This document shows, piece by piece, positions 34,458 through 42,815 of a DNA stretch of 64,000 nucleotides. The stretch comes from Armatimonadota bacterium (GTDB taxonomy: Bacteria; Armatimonadota; Fimbriimonadia; Fimbriimonadales; Fimbriimonadaceae), in contig WGMG01000009.1 of assembly GCA_016125185.1 (NCBI GenBank), positions 98,314 to 162,313 of the forward strand, given 5' to 3'. Position 1 is the stretch's first letter, and each line of letters starts with the position of its first letter. The translations under genes were made by a program, and so were the position numbers. The notes under the pieces are model-generated. The model did not search any database. It saw nothing but the letters and a program-made list of their open reading frames with translations, and was not told where the DNA came from.

Positions 34458-34889
34458 ATGAAAATGAAGTCTTTGAAATTATTTTTTGTGTTGTGGGGAA
34501 TGTGGATGTATTTTTCCAGCGCCGTGGTCATCACACGGTTTGAGTTTGCGCGGGCGGTGGGCCGTCTGGTGCACTCTCGGCAGCCCCTCCTGATGCGGTT
34601 TACCGAAGGAACGTGGTGGATCACGGACCGGGTGTACCACGTGGTCGAGTTTACGATTCTGTCGATGCTGGCGCTGAAGCTTTCGCCTTACCTGCAGAAG
34701 CGACCGTTTGCGCTGATCCCGATGGCGTTGCTGATCGGGGCGGCGGACGAGTACCACCAGTTCCTGGTGAACGCCGGGGCGGCGCACACGTACGACGTGC
34801 TGATCGACGCGATCGGAGCGGGTGTGGTGCTGTGGGTGTACGTGCGCGGAAGCATTAAGCGAGAGTCGATGACGGCGATCGTGGCTTAA
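34458..34889 (+). CDS. VanZ-like membrane protein
   Basis: 143 residues with four hydrophobic segments. The VanZ pattern is visible: an N-terminal helix (LKLFFVLWGMWMYFSSAV), then VYHVVEFTILSMLAL, then ALIPMALLIGAADEYHQFLV with the conserved acidic DEYHQ, then TYDVLIDAIGAGVVLWVYV. VanZ in enterococci is an accessory teicoplanin-resistance protein, but most VanZ-like proteins have unknown function. A TTAGGA ribosome-binding site precedes ATG 34458; a second ATG two codons later is also possible. Monocistronic by spacing, followed by the hsd operon after about 117 bases. Confidence 0.85.
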   Translation: MKMKSLKLFFVLWGMWMYFSSAVVITRFEFARAVGRLVHSRQPLLMRFTEGTWWITDRVYHVVEFTILSMLALKLSPYLQKRPFALIPMALLIGAADEYHQFLVNAGAAHTYDVLIDAIGAGVVLWVYVRGSIKRESMTAIVA

Positions 34890-35006: not shown

Positions 35007-37367
35007 ATGGACAAAAAAACACTTTCGGAAGCTGACATCCGCACCAAATTCATTTTGCCCGCCATCCTTGGACCAAACGGCGAAAAGTGGGATAACCGCC
35101 ATCAAATCCGCGAAGAGGTTCATTTCACGAACGGTCGCGTGATAGTCCGAGGAAAAATGGTCAGGCGTGGCGAGTCGAAGAAAGCCGACTACATTCTCTA
35201 TTACAAACCGAAGTTAGCATTAGCCGTCGTCGAAGCAAAAGACAATAATCACGAAGTCGGGGCTGGGATGCAACAAGCTCTCCAGTATGCCGAAATCCTC
35301 GACATTCCATTTGTGTACAGTTCCAACGGGGATGGGTTCCTGGAGCATGATCGAACCGTAACGGAGGGCTCGGTAACAAGAGAATTAGGTCTTCACGAAT
35401 TTCCATCCGCCGAAGAACTCTGGGCTCGTTACTGCAAAGCAAAAGGCTTAACGCCCGATCAGGAGGTTGTCACCACTCAGGACTATTACGATGATGGCTC
35501 CGGTAAAATCCCCCGCTACTACCAAGCAATTGCGATTAACCGAACCATCGAAGCGGTCGCCAAAGGGCAAGACAGAATCTTGCTGGTGATGGCAACCGGT
35601 ACCGGTAAGACCTACACTGCCTTTCAGATCATATGGCGACTATGGAAGTCCGGCGCAAAGAAGCGAATCCTGTTCCTAGTTGATCGCAATGTCCTCGCGG
35701 ACCAAACCAAAACCAATGATTTCAAGCCATTTGGTCAGGCGATGACCAAGGTCACCCATCGTACGGTTGACCCATCGTACGAAATCTACCTCTGTCTGTA
35801 CCAGGCAGTCACCGGGACCGAAGAAGATCAAAACATCTATAAGCAGTTTAGTCCGGGGTTCTTCGACCTCATCTTTATCGACGAGTGTCACCGTGGCAGT
35901 GCCGCCGCCGATGCCTCCTGGCGAAAAGTCCTCGAATACTTCTCATCAGCCACGCAAATTGGGCTAACGGCCACTCCTAAGGAGACCAAAGATGTCTCGA
36001 ACATCGACTATTTCGGCCAACCGATCTACACGTATTCGCTGAGACAAGGAATTGAAGACGGATTCCTCGCGCCGTACAAAGTGGTCCGAATCGGAATCGA
36101 CAAAGACCTTGACGGCTGGCGTCCCGAGGCTGGTCAAACCGACAAGTACGGTCGAGAGATCGAAGATCGAGAATATAACGAGCGAGACTATGATCGAAAT
36201 CTCGTCCTCGAAAAACGAACCGAACTCGTAGCGGCTAAGATCACCGAGTTCCTGAAAGCTACCGGTCGATTCTCAAAAACGATCGTCTTTTGTGAAAACA
36301 CAGACCATGCCGAACGCATGCGACAAGCTTTGGTGAACGCCAACCCTGACCTCGCCGCGGCTAATAGTCGCTACGTAATGCGGATCACGGGTGATGACAA
36401 CGAAGGGAAGCGTCAACTCGACAATTTTATTGATCCAGAATCGACCTTTCCCGTCGTTGCCACAACCTCTCAACTCATGTCGACGGGAGTGGATGCCCAA
36501 ACCTGTAAGTTGATCGTGCTCGATAAGCGGATCGAATCCATGACCGAATTCAAGCAGATCATTGGACGCGGTACGCGGATCAATGAGGATTACGACAAAC
36601 TCTACTTCACGATCATGGACTTTCGACGGGCAACGTCACTCTTTGCCGATCCCGATTTCGACGGCGAGCCAGTCCAGATTTACGAGCCAGGACTGGACGA
36701 AACACCTGTGCCACCTGACGACGAACCATTAACCGAAGAAATCGATGACGAGAGCGGTACCGACGAAACGGAGGATGAGGAGGATATGGTCCGCGAACGA
36801 ACCAAGCGGTACGTAGTGGACACCGTCGAGGTTCGGGTTGCCACCGAAAGGATTCAATATCTCGGGGCGGATGGAAAGCTCATTACCGAGTCCCTCAAAG
36901 ATTACACACGAAAGACGTTGCGTAAGACTTACGCTTCCTTAGACTCATTTTTGACGAAATGGAACGACGCCGAAAAGAAGCAAGCCATCCTCGAAGAACT
37001 TGCTAGTCAGGGGGTGTTCATTGATGAACTCTCCGAGCAAGTCGGGCGAGACTATGATGCCTTCGATCTCCTCTGCCACGTGGCGTTCGATCAGCCGCCC
37101 CTGACTCGGCGTGAACGCGCCGAGAGCGTGAAGAAGCGAAATGTCTTTGGGAAGTACGGTGATCAAGCCCGGGCTGTCCTCGAAAGCCTTTTGCAAAAAT
37201 ATGCCGACACCGGCATTGAGAGCGTAGAGTCGCTTGATATACTCAACGTGGACCCGCTACGGGCGTTCGGGACACCTGTTGAGATTGTCAGGTTGTTTGG
37301 TGGCAAGCCAGGTTACTTAGCTGCGATTCGGGAACTTGAGACGGCCTTATACGCGGGCGCTGCTTAG
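35007..37367 (+). CDS. hsdR: type I restriction enzyme R subunit (EcoEI-like)
   Basis: 786 residues, the short type typical of EcoEI-like HsdR. N-terminal nuclease of the PD-(D/E)xK kind with D61 (KADYILY) and E76-A-K78 (VVEAKD). The DEAD-like motor follows: Walker A ATGTGKT at 198-202, DECH at 292-295 (FIDECHRGS), SATQIGLTATP, and helicase C-terminal motifs (TSQLMSTGVDAQ, QIIGRGTRINEDYDK). An acidic linker near 560-590 leads to a helical C-terminal domain that contacts the methylase. It cuts unmethylated DNA after ATP-driven translocation. Strong AGGGAGG ribosome-binding site right before the ATG. hsdM starts three bases after the stop. Confidence 0.96.
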   Translation: MDKKTLSEADIRTKFILPAILGPNGEKWDNRHQIREEVHFTNGRVIVRGKMVRRGESKKADYILYYKPKLALAVVEAKDNNHEVGAGMQQALQYAEILDIPFVYSSNGDGFLEHDRTVTEGSVTRELGLHEFPSAEELWARYCKAKGLTPDQEVVTTQDYYDDGSGKIPRYYQAIAINRTIEAVAKGQDRILLVMATGTGKTYTAFQIIWRLWKSGAKKRILFLVDRNVLADQTKTNDFKPFGQAMTKVTHRTVDPSYEIYLCLYQAVTGTEEDQNIYKQFSPGFFDLIFIDECHRGSAAADASWRKVLEYFSSATQIGLTATPKETKDVSNIDYFGQPIYTYSLRQGIEDGFLAPYKVVRIGIDKDLDGWRPEAGQTDKYGREIEDREYNERDYDRNLVLEKRTELVAAKITEFLKATGRFSKTIVFCENTDHAERMRQALVNANPDLAAANSRYVMRITGDDNEGKRQLDNFIDPESTFPVVATTSQLMSTGVDAQTCKLIVLDKRIESMTEFKQIIGRGTRINEDYDKLYFTIMDFRRATSLFADPDFDGEPVQIYEPGLDETPVPPDDEPLTEEIDDESGTDETEDEEDMVRERTKRYVVDTVEVRVATERIQYLGADGKLITESLKDYTRKTLRKTYASLDSFLTKWNDAEKKQAILEELASQGVFIDELSEQVGRDYDAFDLLCHVAFDQPPLTRRERAESVKKRNVFGKYGDQARAVLESLLQKYADTGIESVESLDILNVDPLRAFGTPVEIVRLFGGKPGYLAAIRELETALYAGAA

Positions 37368-37370
37368 GCC

Positions 37371-38837
37371 ATGTCAAACGTTTCGGGAATCGTCAAGTCC
37401 ATTCAGGACATCATGCGGAAAGACGCCGGAACGTACGGCGATGCTCAACGGCTAGAACAACTCGGCTGGATGCTCTTCCTCAAGATTTTCGATGATCGCG
37501 AACAGGAACTCGAAATCCGCCGTGAGGATTACCAATCTCCCTTGCCCTCTCATCTGAGGTGGTCGGCGTGGGCCACCAATCCCGAGGGGATCACCGGCGA
37601 TCCGTTGCTAGATTTCGTCAATAACACGCTCTTGCCAAAGCTCAAGTCGATCACTACCGACAAAGATCAGTTGACCAAAGTCTTTCGGTCGACTTTCGAA
37701 GATGCCAACAACTACATGAAGAATGGCACCCTCATGCGGCAGGTCATCAATAAGATCAATGGTATCGACTTCAACGCCAGCGATGACCGCCACATGTTTG
37801 GCGACATCTACGAGAAACTTCTTCGCGACCTTCAGTCAGCGGGTAACGCGGGTGAGTTCTATACACCACGAGCCGTGACCCAGTTCATTGTTGACATGGT
37901 GAATCCGCAACTGGGTGAACATGTGATGGACCCCGCCTGCGGAACCGGAGGCTTTCTAACTTGCTCCATAGAGCATCTTCGAACGCAAGCAAAAACCGTG
38001 GAAGACGAGGCTATTATTCAAAGTTCTTTTTCCGGCATTGAAAAGAAAAATCTGCCTCATGTCCTCTGCATGACAAATTTGTTGCTGCATGGAATCGATA
38101 CTCCTTCCAATGTTCAGCATGGAAACACTCTCGCAAGACCACTAACCAGTTGGGGACCAAGAGAGCGTGTTGAAACTATCGTTACCAACCCACCCTTTGG
38201 CGGGATGGAGGAAGATGGAATTGAAGCAAATTTTCCCTCTGAGTTCCGAACACGGGAAACCGCTGACCTATTCCTTGTCCTCATCATGCGGCTCCTCAAA
38301 GATGGTGGCCGCGCAGGATTAGTTCTTCCTGACGGAACTCTTTTTGGTGAAGGTGTCAAAACTCGAATCAAGGAAGCCCTGCTAACCGAATGCAATCTCC
38401 ACACAATTGTGCGGCTACCCAACGGCGTCTTTAACCCTTACACCAGCATCCGCACCAACCTTCTGTTCTTCACGAAGGGTGTACCAACGAAAGAGGTTTG
38501 GTACTACGAACATCCATATCCAGAAGGAATTAAAAGTTACAACAAAGGAAAGCCGATTCGAATTGAAGAATTCAAACCAGAAAAAGACTGGTGGGGGGAA
38601 GAAGCCGATGGCTTCAAATCCAGAGTTGAAAACGAACGCGCCTGGCGAGTATCACTTGACCATGTTAAAGCTGGAAATTTCAATCTTGATCTTAAGAACC
38701 CGCACACTGTCGACAATGGCCCCGGTGACGTGAACTTTCTTTTGGATGAATATGAAAGCCTCCTCGCTAAGATCGCCAGTACGCGCTCCAAGCTAAAGCA
38801 AGAACTCAGTCGCGCTATTAGCGGAACAGTCGAATGA
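37371..38837 (+). CDS. hsdM: type I restriction-modification methylase subunit (N6-adenine)
   Basis: 488 residues. Methylates adenine at the recognition site, protecting host DNA. N-terminal helical domain (SIQDIMRKDAGTYGDAQRLE), then the SAM-binding motif DPACGTGGF at about 187-195 and the catalytic motif NPPFGG at about 273-278. TPRAVTQFIVDMV precedes the SAM site, as in all HsdM. The C-terminus is a coiled coil (YESLLAKIASTRSKLKQEL) for contact with HsdS. It follows hsdR with a three-base gap and overlaps hsdS by four (ATGA), so the three genes form one transcription and translation unit. Confidence 0.97.
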   Translation: MSNVSGIVKSIQDIMRKDAGTYGDAQRLEQLGWMLFLKIFDDREQELEIRREDYQSPLPSHLRWSAWATNPEGITGDPLLDFVNNTLLPKLKSITTDKDQLTKVFRSTFEDANNYMKNGTLMRQVINKINGIDFNASDDRHMFGDIYEKLLRDLQSAGNAGEFYTPRAVTQFIVDMVNPQLGEHVMDPACGTGGFLTCSIEHLRTQAKTVEDEAIIQSSFSGIEKKNLPHVLCMTNLLLHGIDTPSNVQHGNTLARPLTSWGPRERVETIVTNPPFGGMEEDGIEANFPSEFRTRETADLFLVLIMRLLKDGGRAGLVLPDGTLFGEGVKTRIKEALLTECNLHTIVRLPNGVFNPYTSIRTNLLFFTKGVPTKEVWYYEHPYPEGIKSYNKGKPIRIEEFKPEKDWWGEEADGFKSRVENERAWRVSLDHVKAGNFNLDLKNPHTVDNGPGDVNFLLDEYESLLAKIASTRSKLKQELSRAISGTVE

Positions 38838-41179
38838 ATATCGAGACATTTTTCGGAAGGTTCGACAAGTTGGCTAACTCCGTAGGATCAGTCGAAAATT
38901 TGCGTGAATTGGTGCTACACCTTGCCATAACCGGTCGACTAGCGGAGCCAGAGCCTGAAGACGGTCCGGTTAGCGAACTCCTTACTGCACTTTCGGCATC
39001 GGCTAATCGTCATGGGAAAAGTCGAGGACCAAGCATTGAATCTGTGATTAATTCAGAATCGATTGTTGACCGCCCTATTGCTACACCTACTCATTGGGCT
39101 TGGGTTCCACTAAATAAGATTGGACTAATTTCTGGAGGAATGACGCCATCAAAAAATATTCCTTCTTACTGGGATGGTGACGTGAATTGGTTTTCGTCGA
39201 AAGACATCAAGGCTGATGAACTGAACGAATCAGAACTCAAGATCACCCGAAAAGCAACGGGGGCCACAAGGCTCAATATTTATCCTCCTGGCTGTCTGGT
39301 TATGGTTGGTCGAAGTGGCATTCTTAAGCGGACTTTTCCCGTTTCGATACTGCGGGTTGAAGGCACCGTCAACCAAGATCTAAAGGTACTGTCACCGTTT
39401 GTTGCGGGAATGGAGCGTTACCTTCAAGTCATGCTTCGCAGCATGAAAAGCTTCATTCTCAAGTCGTTGGTGAAAACCGGAATGACCGTTCAGAGCTTGA
39501 AGTACGAAGAGTTTGAAATGCAAGCGTTTCCCCTACCTCCTATTGGTGAGCAGAAGCGGATCGTTGCGAAAGTTGACGAATTGATGGCTCTATGTGACCA
39601 ACTGGAAGCACAACTTCGTGAAAGGGAGGCGCAACAAGCCGAACTCGCCCGAGCCTCGCTTGCTCGCTTTGCAGCCGACCCAACCCCGGCCAATCTCGAA
39701 TTTCTTTTTCATCAGGCGTTCGACATTGACCCCGCCGATCTCCGCAAAGCTATCCTCACCCTTGCCCTTCAAGGGAAACTCGTCCCCCAGGAACCCAACG
39801 ACGAACCAGCCTTTGAAATCTTAAGTAGGGTAAGCAAACATAGGGAACAGCATGCAAAGGTGAAGGCTGAGAAGATGACCACACGCATTCATAAGCTAGG
39901 TAAAGACCAGAGATTTCACCAAATTCCTGCATCATGGACTTGGTGTCGGCTCGGTGATATAGTTCTTGAATTTCGTTACGGTACATCTCGAAAATGTGAT
40001 CGTAATTCAAAAGGCGTACCAGTCCTACGAATCCCAAACATCCAAAGTGGTCTGGTCGATGCGACAGACCTAAAATTCACAGATATGCCTGAAGCGGAGT
40101 TTGATAGCTTGAGATTGCGAGAGGGAGATCTGCTCCTAGTTCGCTCCAATGGAAGCGAGAGTTTAGTTGGACGAAGTGCAGTCGTTACTTCAACTGACGA
40201 AAAGTATGCCTATGCGGGTTACCTTGTTCGCGCAAGGATTCCAAGCGAGGAGGTTTCCGCGCACTTTTTGCAGATTGCGCTCAGTACACCCGCTGTGCGT
40301 TATCAAATTGAAGGACCTATTCGAACTACAAGCGGGGTGAAGAATATCAACACTAGCGAGCTATCGAATATCGCTTTTCCGCTTCCACCACTCGCGGAAC
40401 AGACACGGATCGTGGACAAAGTGGGGCTACTAATGGCTTTAGTGGACCAGTTGGAAGCCAAGCAGAAAGAATCAAGGGCCAAGGCTGAAGACCTTCTGGC
40501 AGCATTGGTTCATGCCATAACGGTCCCACAATCGCCCTCGCACGTTGCCGAGTCAGAACAGCCAGACTATCAAACCTTCATCCATCCAAGCGTCTTTCTC
40601 GCTGCCGAGATTACCGATCGTCTCCATGACCACAACACTTTTGGTCAAACCAAACTTCAGAAAGTCATTTACCTCGCAGAGTATTGCCTTCAACTTCCTG
40701 AGATAGAGAGTTCTTACGTTCGATACCAGCGTGGACCCTATGATCCAAACCTCATTGACAGGATCGAAGCAGGATTAGTGGAACATCAGTGGTTTGACGT
40801 GCAATCGAGATCGGAAGGTAAGGGAAGACAATACTCTCGACTGGATGGCGACGAACGTTACCATGACCTTGTTCGCCTTCAATGGCAAGACAAAGCGAAG
40901 GAGATTCGAGACCTTGTCGACATGTTACGGACTTGGTCGAGTGAAGACTGCGAAATCTTCGCCACTCTCTTTGCGGCTTGGAATGACTTCATCATTCATG
41001 GCGAAGAAGTCACCGACGACAAGATCATCAACGAAGTCTTGTATAACTGGCATGAAGAAAAGCAGCGAATCTCGAAACCCACTTGGCAGAAGAAACTCGA
41101 TTGGATGAAGGCCAAGGGATTTATTCCTGTCGGTTACGGCAAGCCGACAAAGAAGCCAGATCAACCAAAGTTGTTCTAG
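38834..41179 (+). CDS. hsdS: type I specificity subunit fused to a C-terminal Panacea (DUF4065)-like domain
   Basis: 781 residues, about 350 longer than usual HsdS. Target-recognition domain one spans about 80-235, closing with the conserved helix EQKRIVAKVDELMALCDQLEAQ. Domain two spans about 370-540, closing with EQTRIVDKVGLLMALVDQLE. These choose the bipartite DNA site. From about residue 583 comes a region not part of HsdS: FGQTKLQKVIYLAEY, then VRYQRGPYDPNLIDRIEAGL, the signature of Panacea/SocA-like antitoxin domains, continuing to about 720 and followed by a short tail. Such domains neutralise diverse toxins or act as adaptors for proteases. The fusion is in frame with no frameshift; a separate role for the tail is inference. 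Confidence 0.9.
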   Translation: MNIETFFGRFDKLANSVGSVENLRELVLHLAITGRLAEPEPEDGPVSELLTALSASANRHGKSRGPSIESVINSESIVDRPIATPTHWAWVPLNKIGLISGGMTPSKNIPSYWDGDVNWFSSKDIKADELNESELKITRKATGATRLNIYPPGCLVMVGRSGILKRTFPVSILRVEGTVNQDLKVLSPFVAGMERYLQVMLRSMKSFILKSLVKTGMTVQSLKYEEFEMQAFPLPPIGEQKRIVAKVDELMALCDQLEAQLREREAQQAELARASLARFAADPTPANLEFLFHQAFDIDPADLRKAILTLALQGKLVPQEPNDEPAFEILSRVSKHREQHAKVKAEKMTTRIHKLGKDQRFHQIPASWTWCRLGDIVLEFRYGTSRKCDRNSKGVPVLRIPNIQSGLVDATDLKFTDMPEAEFDSLRLREGDLLLVRSNGSESLVGRSAVVTSTDEKYAYAGYLVRARIPSEEVSAHFLQIALSTPAVRYQIEGPIRTTSGVKNINTSELSNIAFPLPPLAEQTRIVDKVGLLMALVDQLEAKQKESRAKAEDLLAALVHAITVPQSPSHVAESEQPDYQTFIHPSVFLAAEITDRLHDHNTFGQTKLQKVIYLAEYCLQLPEIESSYVRYQRGPYDPNLIDRIEAGLVEHQWFDVQSRSEGKGRQYSRLDGDERYHDLVRLQWQDKAKEIRDLVDMLRTWSSEDCEIFATLFAAWNDFIIHGEEVTDDKIINEVLYNWHEEKQRISKPTWQKKLDWMKAKGFIPVGYGKPTKKPDQPKLF

Positions 41180-41297: not shown

Positions 41298-42815
41298 ATG
41301 GAAAGCAGCTATGGGCAACAGATGGGGGACCGACAGAAAGTGGCGCACCTGCTCCGTCGATTTGGATTTGGGGCGAGCGAGGCCGAGCTGGACTACTACG
41401 CCAAAGACGGCCACGCCGGCGCGATCGACAAGCTCCTTGACTACGAGAAGATCGACGACGTGGTGAACGTGGACCCCGACAGCTTTTCCAACGGCAAGAA
41501 CGTGGTGAACATGCGGGTGGCGCAGGGCATCTTCGCCATGCGGCTGGTGGGCACGATGCGCCCGCTGCAGGAGAAGATGACGCTGTTTTGGCACAACCAT
41601 TTTGCCACCAGCAGTCAGAAGGTTGAGAACGCCTTTGCGATGCTCCACCACGTGGACACCCTGCGCGCCAACGCCCTGGGCAAGTTCGAGGTCCTGCTGA
41701 AGGCCATCAGCAAAGACCCGGCGATGATCTACTGGCTGGACAACCAGGAGAACGTGGCCGAGCACCCCAACGAGAACTTTGCTCGCGAGGTGATGGAACT
41801 GTTCACCCTGGGCGTGGGCCACTATACCGAGAAGGACGTGCAGGAGGCGGCGCGATGCTTCACCGGGTGGAGCTACGGCCCTCCGCGCCGAGGTCCGGCG
41901 TTTGCGGCTCGGCCCACCGTCAACCGCGGGCCCAACCGGTTCGAGGTGTACAAATTTGTGGAGGGCAACCACGACGACCGGTCCAAAACCGTGCTGGGGC
42001 AGACCGGCGACTTTGACGGCGACGACGTGCTTTCGTTGCTATGCCGCCAGAGGCAATGCGCCACGTTCATCACGCGGAAGCTGTGGAGCTGGTTTGGGTA
42101 CGAGAACCCGGAGGACGCGCTGATCGAGCGGCTGTCGGGGCGGTTTTACGCGTCGGGGCTGGACGTTCGGTCGTTGGTGCGCGACGTGATGGAGGCGCCG
42201 GAGTTCTATTCGGACAAGGCGGTGCGGCGCGTCATCAAGAACCCGATCGACTTTACGGTGGCGACCATCCGCCAACTGGGCATGGGTCAGACGATGCTGG
42301 AGCGGATGAAGGAGGCGATCGCCAATCCGCAGATCAACGATAAGAATGGGCTGAACATCGCCCTGGTGCGCGCGATGGCTCCGGCCCAGGCGGCGCTGTC
42401 GGCATCGACCTCGATGGGCATGGAACTGATGACCCCGCCGGACGTTTCGGGATGGCGGACGGGCGCGTATTGGATCACGTCGGCGACGATGGTGGAGCGC
42501 ATGAAGTGGGCCGACAAGCTGTTCGCCGGAGGTCCGGCGGGCGGGGCGGCAGGGCAGAATCCGCTGGGCGGTCAGCGCGGGGCCCAAGTGGGCGCACTGG
42601 CGTATCCGCTTTTTGCCAAGGACCCTTCGGCGGCGGGCGTGGTGGGGGTGCTGATGTCGGTTTTCGACGTCACATTGCCGGCGGCGAAGGTAGACGGCCT
42701 GGTGGCGGCGGCCGAAAAGGCGGGTGCGGGGTCGATGAATCCGCGCACGGCGAACGACGTGGCGCGCGAGGTTTGCAAGCTGTTGTTTGCGAGTCCTGAG
42801 TTTCAGATGTGTTGA
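41298..42815 (+). CDS. DUF1800 protein
   Basis: 505 residues. Family blocks are clear: VAHLLRRFGFGASEAEL at the start, LQEKMTLFWHNHFATSS, NFAREVMELFTLGVGHYTEKDVQEAARCFTGW, and the later PPDVSGWRTGAYWITSATM. DUF1800 proteins are often next to a DUF1501 gene, and both are thought to be exported and involved in surface or extracellular processes, but the function is not established. Here no DUF1501 partner follows; the next gene is on the other strand. No signal peptide is visible at the chosen ATG; another ATG lies eight codons in. A Gly/Ala-rich insert occurs near 410-430. The immediate upstream gene is hsdS, which is unrelated. Confidence 0.85.
   Translation: MESSYGQQMGDRQKVAHLLRRFGFGASEAELDYYAKDGHAGAIDKLLDYEKIDDVVNVDPDSFSNGKNVVNMRVAQGIFAMRLVGTMRPLQEKMTLFWHNHFATSSQKVENAFAMLHHVDTLRANALGKFEVLLKAISKDPAMIYWLDNQENVAEHPNENFAREVMELFTLGVGHYTEKDVQEAARCFTGWSYGPPRRGPAFAARPTVNRGPNRFEVYKFVEGNHDDRSKTVLGQTGDFDGDDVLSLLCRQRQCATFITRKLWSWFGYENPEDALIERLSGRFYASGLDVRSLVRDVMEAPEFYSDKAVRRVIKNPIDFTVATIRQLGMGQTMLERMKEAIANPQINDKNGLNIALVRAMAPAQAALSASTSMGMELMTPPDVSGWRTGAYWITSATMVERMKWADKLFAGGPAGGAAGQNPLGGQRGAQVGALAYPLFAKDPSAAGVVGVLMSVFDVTLPAAKVDGLVAAAEKAGAGSMNPRTANDVAREVCKLLFASPEFQMC

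Follow-up and report, generated by a model that had tools for sequence, protein, structure and literature searches.

A probable DarG C-terminal-type domain tethered to the specificity subunit of a type IB-like restriction–modification system from an Armatimonadota bacterium

DarG combines a macrodomain, which strips ADP-ribose from DNA, with a C-terminal domain, which blocks the DNA groove of DarT by mimicry of single-stranded DNA, as related in the passage of PMC11481870 that cites Deep et al. 2023. DarTG occurs inside type I restriction–modification (R-M) operons, for which crosstalk or stabilisation of the locus has been raised (PMC5179494); the pair of enteropathogenic Escherichia coli (EPEC), located between hsdS and hsdR, is a cited case (PMC12255303). 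EcoprrI provides an example of a type I complex that restrains another effector, PrrC, a nuclease encoded by a separate gene (PMC3874165), and a comparable role is proposed below for a domain found on a type I subunit of an Armatimonadota bacterium. The operon lies in a 64,000-nucleotide stretch of contig WGMG01000009.1 (the window, meaning the whole stretch analysed), and its specificity subunit, HsdS, carries a C-terminal extension (the tail). This extension, tethered to a type IB HsdS, is very probably a domain that folds on its own and belongs to the DarG C-terminal (DarG-C, toxin-binding) superfamily, to which Panacea is distantly related.

The tail comprises about 200 residues past CR2, the second conserved coiled coil of HsdS, with a folded part at about residues 585-777. 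The initial annotation of this DNA had pointed out these extra residues past the second target-recognition unit, together with the KLQKVIYLAEY and RGPYDPN signatures, and both were confirmed, at residues 607-617 and 633-639. An AlphaFold2 model of the tail, built from an 11-row alignment, reached a predicted local distance difference test (pLDDT) score of 93.7 and a predicted template modelling (pTM) score of 0.90; in the model of full-length HsdS, the tail is attached through a linker with pLDDT below 50. Comparison of the tail model with PDB structures (VIA-align) gave chain B of 7yk3 as the outstanding match, with Z 14.3, 167 of 188 residues, a root-mean-square deviation of 3.6 and 15% identity, while the next, unrelated match had Z 6.5; Foldseek assigned the same chain a probability of 1.00, but an E of only 5e-3. 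This chain, named ‘DNA ADP-ribosyl glycohydrolase’, is the DarG C-terminal domain in the DarTG complex of Mycobacterium tuberculosis, and a DarG from the phylum of the window matches it in sequence. Comparison of the tail with DarG-C by hhalign gave 95.6-96.4%, in a colinear alignment where the KLQK and GP motifs were matched, with 0.1-1.1% for the reversed and unrelated controls. The tail is assigned to the DarG-C superfamily because the fold match and the profile comparison agree; thus, the earlier suggestion of a distinct domain akin to those of antitoxins is borne out. Like DarG-C, the tail occupies the C-terminal place on a chain that guards host DNA by chemical means; unlike DarG, it is fused to HsdS, its identity to 7yk3 chain B is low, its genome is without DarT, and no macrodomain is present on the tailed HsdS chain, where Pfam shows Methylase_S only.

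The name first given to the extension, Panacea/DUF4065-like, held in part. Indeed, hhalign gave 92.4% against 30 genuine Panacea proteins and 78.5% against a smaller set, here too with reversed and unrelated controls at about 1% or less, and the tail has in common with SocA_Panacea (PF13274; PanA, SocA) a colinear profile, the GP motif and the N-terminal KL-K-Y helix; moreover, with the tail profile four free-standing relatives from the phylum reach E 5e-11 to 2e-15, and three of them also match PF13274 below threshold (0.0075-0.017). However, Pfam returned no match on the tail, PF13274 included, even at E 10, the two differ by an extra C-terminal helical part past the matched region, no toxin is linked, and the kinship holds at the superfamily level only. 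Structure prediction, from which a Panacea fold had been anticipated, produced a confident fold with DarG-C as its outstanding match. SocA and PanA are missing from the fold search, an uninformative absence, as the Panacea profile found no match among the PDB sequences and hence no solved Panacea reference fold; a close viral fold match was not found either. By predicted structure and by profile, the nearest named relative of the tail is DarG-C, and Panacea is a more distant cousin.

The tail is not confined to the window. A scan for HsdS with the coiled-coil motif, ranked by tail, listed 10 further HsdS that have the whole tail, and these make up the alignment together with the window protein; they belong to Acidobacteria, Pseudomonas (two), Sideroxydans, Chromobacterium, Rhodanobacter, Methylovorus, Xanthomonas, Chryseobacterium and Thiobacillus. 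All eleven proteins align along the entire tail, with 18 invariant columns, including G-P-x-D, W-N and a C-terminal W..K. The tail profile matched proteins of other phyla with E down to 1e-85, the profile's own rows included, and with E 1e-60 to 1e-78 in genomes outside its building set. Among the PADLOC models, the last 180 positions of the type I methyltransferase model matched the tail at 4.8e-36 and two HsdS models at 3.6e-18 and 4e-17, while the C-terminal half of the DarG model matched more weakly (4e-7 to 1.1e-6). The Specificity_I models PDLC03196 and PDLC03088 and the MTase_I model PDLC03039 thus contain the tail, on HsdS or HsdM, unnamed there. Because of the eleven-sequence alignment with its invariant columns, the profile matches and the PADLOC matches, the tail is not a chance extension.

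The features of the operon are listed below by window position, with target-recognition domains abbreviated TRD and lengths given in amino acids (aa).

35007..37367, + strand: hsdR, EcoAI/FtnUII-type (IB) restriction subunit, 786 aa; NCBIfam NF046051, Pfam ResIII and EcoEI_R_C
37371..38837, + strand: hsdM, type I methyltransferase, 488 aa, without tail; N6_Mtase (4.7e-73) and HsdM_N
38834..41179, + strand: hsdS with C-terminal tail, 781 aa; Methylase_S; PADLOC PDLC03196 over residues 12-773
39092..39622, + strand: TRD1, residues 87-263, the best Methylase_S stretch
39917..40474, + strand: TRD2, residues 362-547 approximately; PADLOC and phmmer matches to HsdS models and EcoKI HsdS
40379..40522, + strand: CR2, second conserved coiled coil (PLPPLAEQ...DQLEAKQ...), residues 516-563 approximately; helix 520-563 in the full-length model, homologous to CR1
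40526..40576, + strand: flexible linker, residues 565-581, with pLDDT below 50 in the full-length model
40586..41176, + strand: tail, predicted DarG-C-type domain, residues 585-781 (AlphaFold2 model, 7yk3 chain B match, hhalign)
40652..40684, + strand: KLQKVIYLAEY motif, residues 607-617, in tail helix 2 (sequence; alignment of 11 tails)
40730..40750, + strand: RGPYDPN motif, residues 633-639; G-P-x-D invariant in 11 of 11 tails, commonly AAGPxD

The three genes form a tight operon, with a gap of 3 bp between hsdR and hsdM and an overlap of 4 bp between hsdM and hsdS. HsdR scores 1204.6 bits against NF046051, the NCBI model for EcoAI/FtnUII (cut-off 550), and the system is therefore type IB-like; judged by this score together with HsdM and the two-TRD HsdS, it is a type IB (EcoAI-like) type I R-M system. 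It shares with EcoAI/EcoEI the EcoAI-type HsdR, the HsdM and the HsdS with two TRDs, but most of the sampled relatives are tail-less; the classical EcoAI/EcoEI members are not known to have a tail, nor is the HsdS of EcoprrI. Pfam recognises Methylase_S alone on HsdS, in two stretches of the TRD part. The upstream flank holds a VanZ-like gene (34458-34889, Pfam scan), and an open reading frame (ORF) at 41298-42815, 118 bp beyond the HsdS stop, is presumably DUF1800-like, as read by eye. Inspection of both flanks found no toxin gene adjoining hsdS, in agreement with the first reading of the locus.

In the window's phylum, direct search of 291 genomes found the full-length tail in its own copy alone, and a more sensitive profile found relatives in eight genomes, which for the most part stand free, lie in DarG or sit on a methylase. 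Tails were present in 15 of 299 Pseudomonas genomes, nearly every copy on HsdS, and in 13 of 395 Bacteroidota genomes, where HsdS proteins from several type I families, HsdM and free-standing genes carry them. The survey of HsdS proteins proposed in the initial annotation thus shows a tail that recurs, in 3-5% of the sampled Pseudomonas and Bacteroidota genomes, and that was already included, unexplained, in the PADLOC models; in a sample of genome contigs, at least about 11 of 293 HsdS were tailed, a figure biased by the search pattern. On the HsdR tree (72 loci, with the locus L215 counted as tailed; loci are denoted here by L and a number), at least eight gains or losses of the tail are required, and the HsdRs nearest to that of the window are tail-less. 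Scans with a single protein or with two sequences found little, and tblastn of plasmids and phages with the tail gave a Tunicatimonas plasmid as its sole match. The match in L003, near a phage gene and without a tail-like ORF, was dismissed as chance, and those in L004 and L048, which cover the C-terminal quarter of the tail only, as fragments. In Pseudomonas, the tail is under purifying selection: its median dN/dS is 0.138, compared with 0.044 for HsdR and 0.051 for HsdM, and its mean identity is 84% versus 94-95% for HsdR and HsdM.

In all cases examined, the bearer of the domain is the modification or antidote chain, or the domain is free beside it; HsdR never carries it. In Bacteroidota, an HsdM of 718 aa (L234) contains HsdM_N and N6_Mtase followed by the tail. 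In the window's phylum, a DrmMI-like methylase adjoining a DruE-like helicase has a DarG-C-type domain at its C-terminus (L049, 6444-11183); a related methylase, of DrmMI/Eco57I type and also beside a DruE-like helicase, has a complete DarT–DarG pair after it instead (L245, 5934-11894). DarG itself is among the bearers (L050, L245). A Nitrospira locus (L088, 3595-12796) codes for HsdR and HsdM 78-80% identical to those of the window and for an HsdS without tail; its tight run of seven genes consists of hsdR-hsdM-hsdS, a 124-aa gene, AlbA_2/HATPase, DUF3037 and a free DarG-C-like gene, whose 231-aa product matches the PADLOC DarG model at 1.9e-21 and lacks a macrodomain. In L207, a single in-frame stop with an ATG directly after it leaves an HsdS of 571 aa and, apart from it, an intact 207-aa tail. 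L233 was rejected as a similar natural split, as its stop lies inside the coiled-coil part of HsdS and more probably reflects an error or a nonsense mutation. The tail also occurs in a type I family with a distant HsdR, which has no more than about 29% identity to that of the window (L077).

Free relatives of the tail are found in other settings as well. In L044 (4757-6564), L045 (4976-6822) and L046 (5946-7908) an HD-domain gene stands directly before a relative of approximately 185-197 aa, and the two look like a two-gene unit; the HD-domain gene of L044 is dGTPase-like, and the pair of L045 sits between type III-like Mod and Res. On the Tunicatimonas plasmid (L005, 8091-9537) and in two Bacteroidota loci (L239, 6365-7697; L241, 6222-7871), the free tail protein starts 3-28 bp after a small gene, which in two of the three has a weak resemblance to sigma-70 region 4. 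The hsdS C-termini of L081, L098 and L137 carry a different, shorter tail (...MKAPQTELVAPVRLGTPPD...APLATILARHNGEMSAKDLWQRFGGEIDAFYAQLK...); with such other short tails present, the C-terminus of HsdS is a repeated site for domain addition.

Neither DarT nor a PF13274 match was found in the genome of the window, and DarT was found in none of 31 tailed genomes; DarT was thus rejected for these genomes and is an unlikely partner of the tail. The gene neighbourhoods have no extra gene common to the tailed operons, in which KilA-N, FRG, Abi_2, AbiEii, an ATPase with an SduA-like stretch or, as in the window, no extra gene occurs; the survey of tailed genomes for toxin genes, which covered DarT and the gene neighbourhoods, yielded no DarT and no conserved neighbour. 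Toxin-like extras are Abi_2 in L070, with a similar ORF in L213, FRG in L074 and AbiEii in L216. Genes intervening between hsdR and hsdM were present in four of eight tailed loci versus nine of 51 tail-less ones (Fisher p 0.06). A 295-aa gene without Pfam match (MPEAVNEDAPFALLERSELF...) recurs upstream of the Pseudomonas hsdR (L209, L210, L212, L214, L129). After the hsdS of L129, a suspected insertion element was identified by Pfam as a NucS-like gene instead.

The best explanation of the whole, which we hold with a little less than even confidence, is that a DarG-C-type domain on HsdS holds a DNA-acting partner, most simply HsdR. The mechanism is put forward somewhat more tentatively: the tail may be an optional protein-docking module through which the methylase complex gains a further, physical layer of control. 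In parallel to the two activities of DarG, HsdM and HsdS would methylate host DNA while the tail would hold a DNA-acting partner, and restriction by HsdR would be damped until something dislodges the tail or the complex engages unmodified DNA. By this analogy we infer that the tail binds protein, that HsdR is its partner and that binding is inhibitory; HsdR would be the most economical partner because the tailed operons have no conserved extra gene and DarT is absent from the 31 genomes. The fold, the profile links to DarG-C, the placement on its bearers, the free copies in R-M operons and the purifying selection support the docking reading. Several findings weigh against it. A uniform acidic, DNA-mimic character of the tails was not seen (net charge -5 to +7), and most relatives whose HsdR and HsdM are nearly the same are tail-less: among 69 loci whose HsdR shares at least 50% identity, a tail is present in only nine, in a sample ranked towards it. 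L129 has no tail, yet its HsdR groups within the clade of the tailed Pseudomonas loci, and therefore HsdR does not need the tail. The correlation of tail and HsdR distances in Pseudomonas (r 0.94) vanishes without two divergent loci and was discarded as proof of coevolution; over a wider range of taxa the association of tail and HsdR is only weak (r about 0.5). Eight of the ten changes of L129 HsdR at columns invariant in its tailed relatives lie at residues 560-600 approximately, but tailed HsdRs vary there as well, and the changes were not retained as specific to tail loss; in the window HsdR (35007-37367) the same residues form an acidic, highly variable linker ahead of the C-terminal domain.

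Other roles for the tail were considered, including the coupling to a toxin, the control by a protease and the sensing of phage anti-restriction proteins suggested in the initial annotation. As an antitoxin, it may act on a toxin that is unlinked or variable, kept silent by the R-M complex and set free once a phage inactivates or modifies that complex, as in EcoprrI/PrrC: the characterised relatives DarG, PanA and SocA are all antitoxins, PrrC sequestered in a type IC complex is a precedent (PMC3874165), partner swapping is known for Panacea (PMC8832971, PMC10440598), and both the toxin-like extras of some tailed operons and the commoner genes between hsdR and hsdM would fit. The window, however, has no toxin-like extra gene, the tailed operons share none, and DarT was missing from the window's own genome and from 31 tailed ones, so that we consider this role unlikely. 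The same low probability is given to the broader proposal that type I methylases repeatedly captured a DarG/Panacea toxin-binding domain, on HsdS or HsdM, whereby the intact complex, as antitoxin or as inhibitor, would check an effector that acts on DNA and so link restriction to a second, abortive defence. A sensor role of the tail, in which capture of a phage protein such as an anti-restriction protein would alter the activity of the complex, is doubtful to a greater degree; its patchy gain and loss, its evolution faster than that of HsdR and HsdM (dN/dS threefold higher) and the sensory role suggested for Panacea (PMC10440598) would agree with a sensor, but its dN/dS of 0.14 is purifying nonetheless, no trigger is known and no viral fold match is close.

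A relic, namely a DarG fragment fused to HsdS and kept after loss of DarT, now either neutral or guarding against incoming DarT, appears improbable. It is suggested by the DarT/DarG pair beside the DrmMI-like methylase of L245 and the similar methylase with fused tail of L049, but purifying selection in Pseudomonas and repeated appearance speak against a neutral remnant, and the tails have clearly diverged from DarG-C. Least probable of all, the tail would be a built-in proteolytic adaptor like SocA, handing HsdR to ClpXP for restriction alleviation. EcoKI and EcoA, the latter of the same type as the window HsdR, show alleviation but are not known to have such a tail, and tails occur also in type I families with a distant HsdR, as in L077; in favour, alleviation of both enzymes reportedly depends on ClpXP (PMC11109961), and SocA, a Panacea-domain protein, is a ClpXP adaptor (PMC8832971).

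In a literature search that was not exhaustive, no paper linked HsdS to Panacea, and those on DarG together with HsdS or type I restriction concerned DarTG or neighbouring genes. The novelty lies in the pairing, so far undescribed, of a known enzyme with a known domain, whose functional interest is real but unproven. A tail silently present in defence-system models now receives a name, and a DarG-type grip domain built into HsdS and HsdM, with many gains or losses and yet kept by selection where it occurs, offers a direct lead on the association of DarTG with R-M systems: either restriction subunits may be held by the kind of domain that grips toxins, or R-M complexes may serve as antitoxins.

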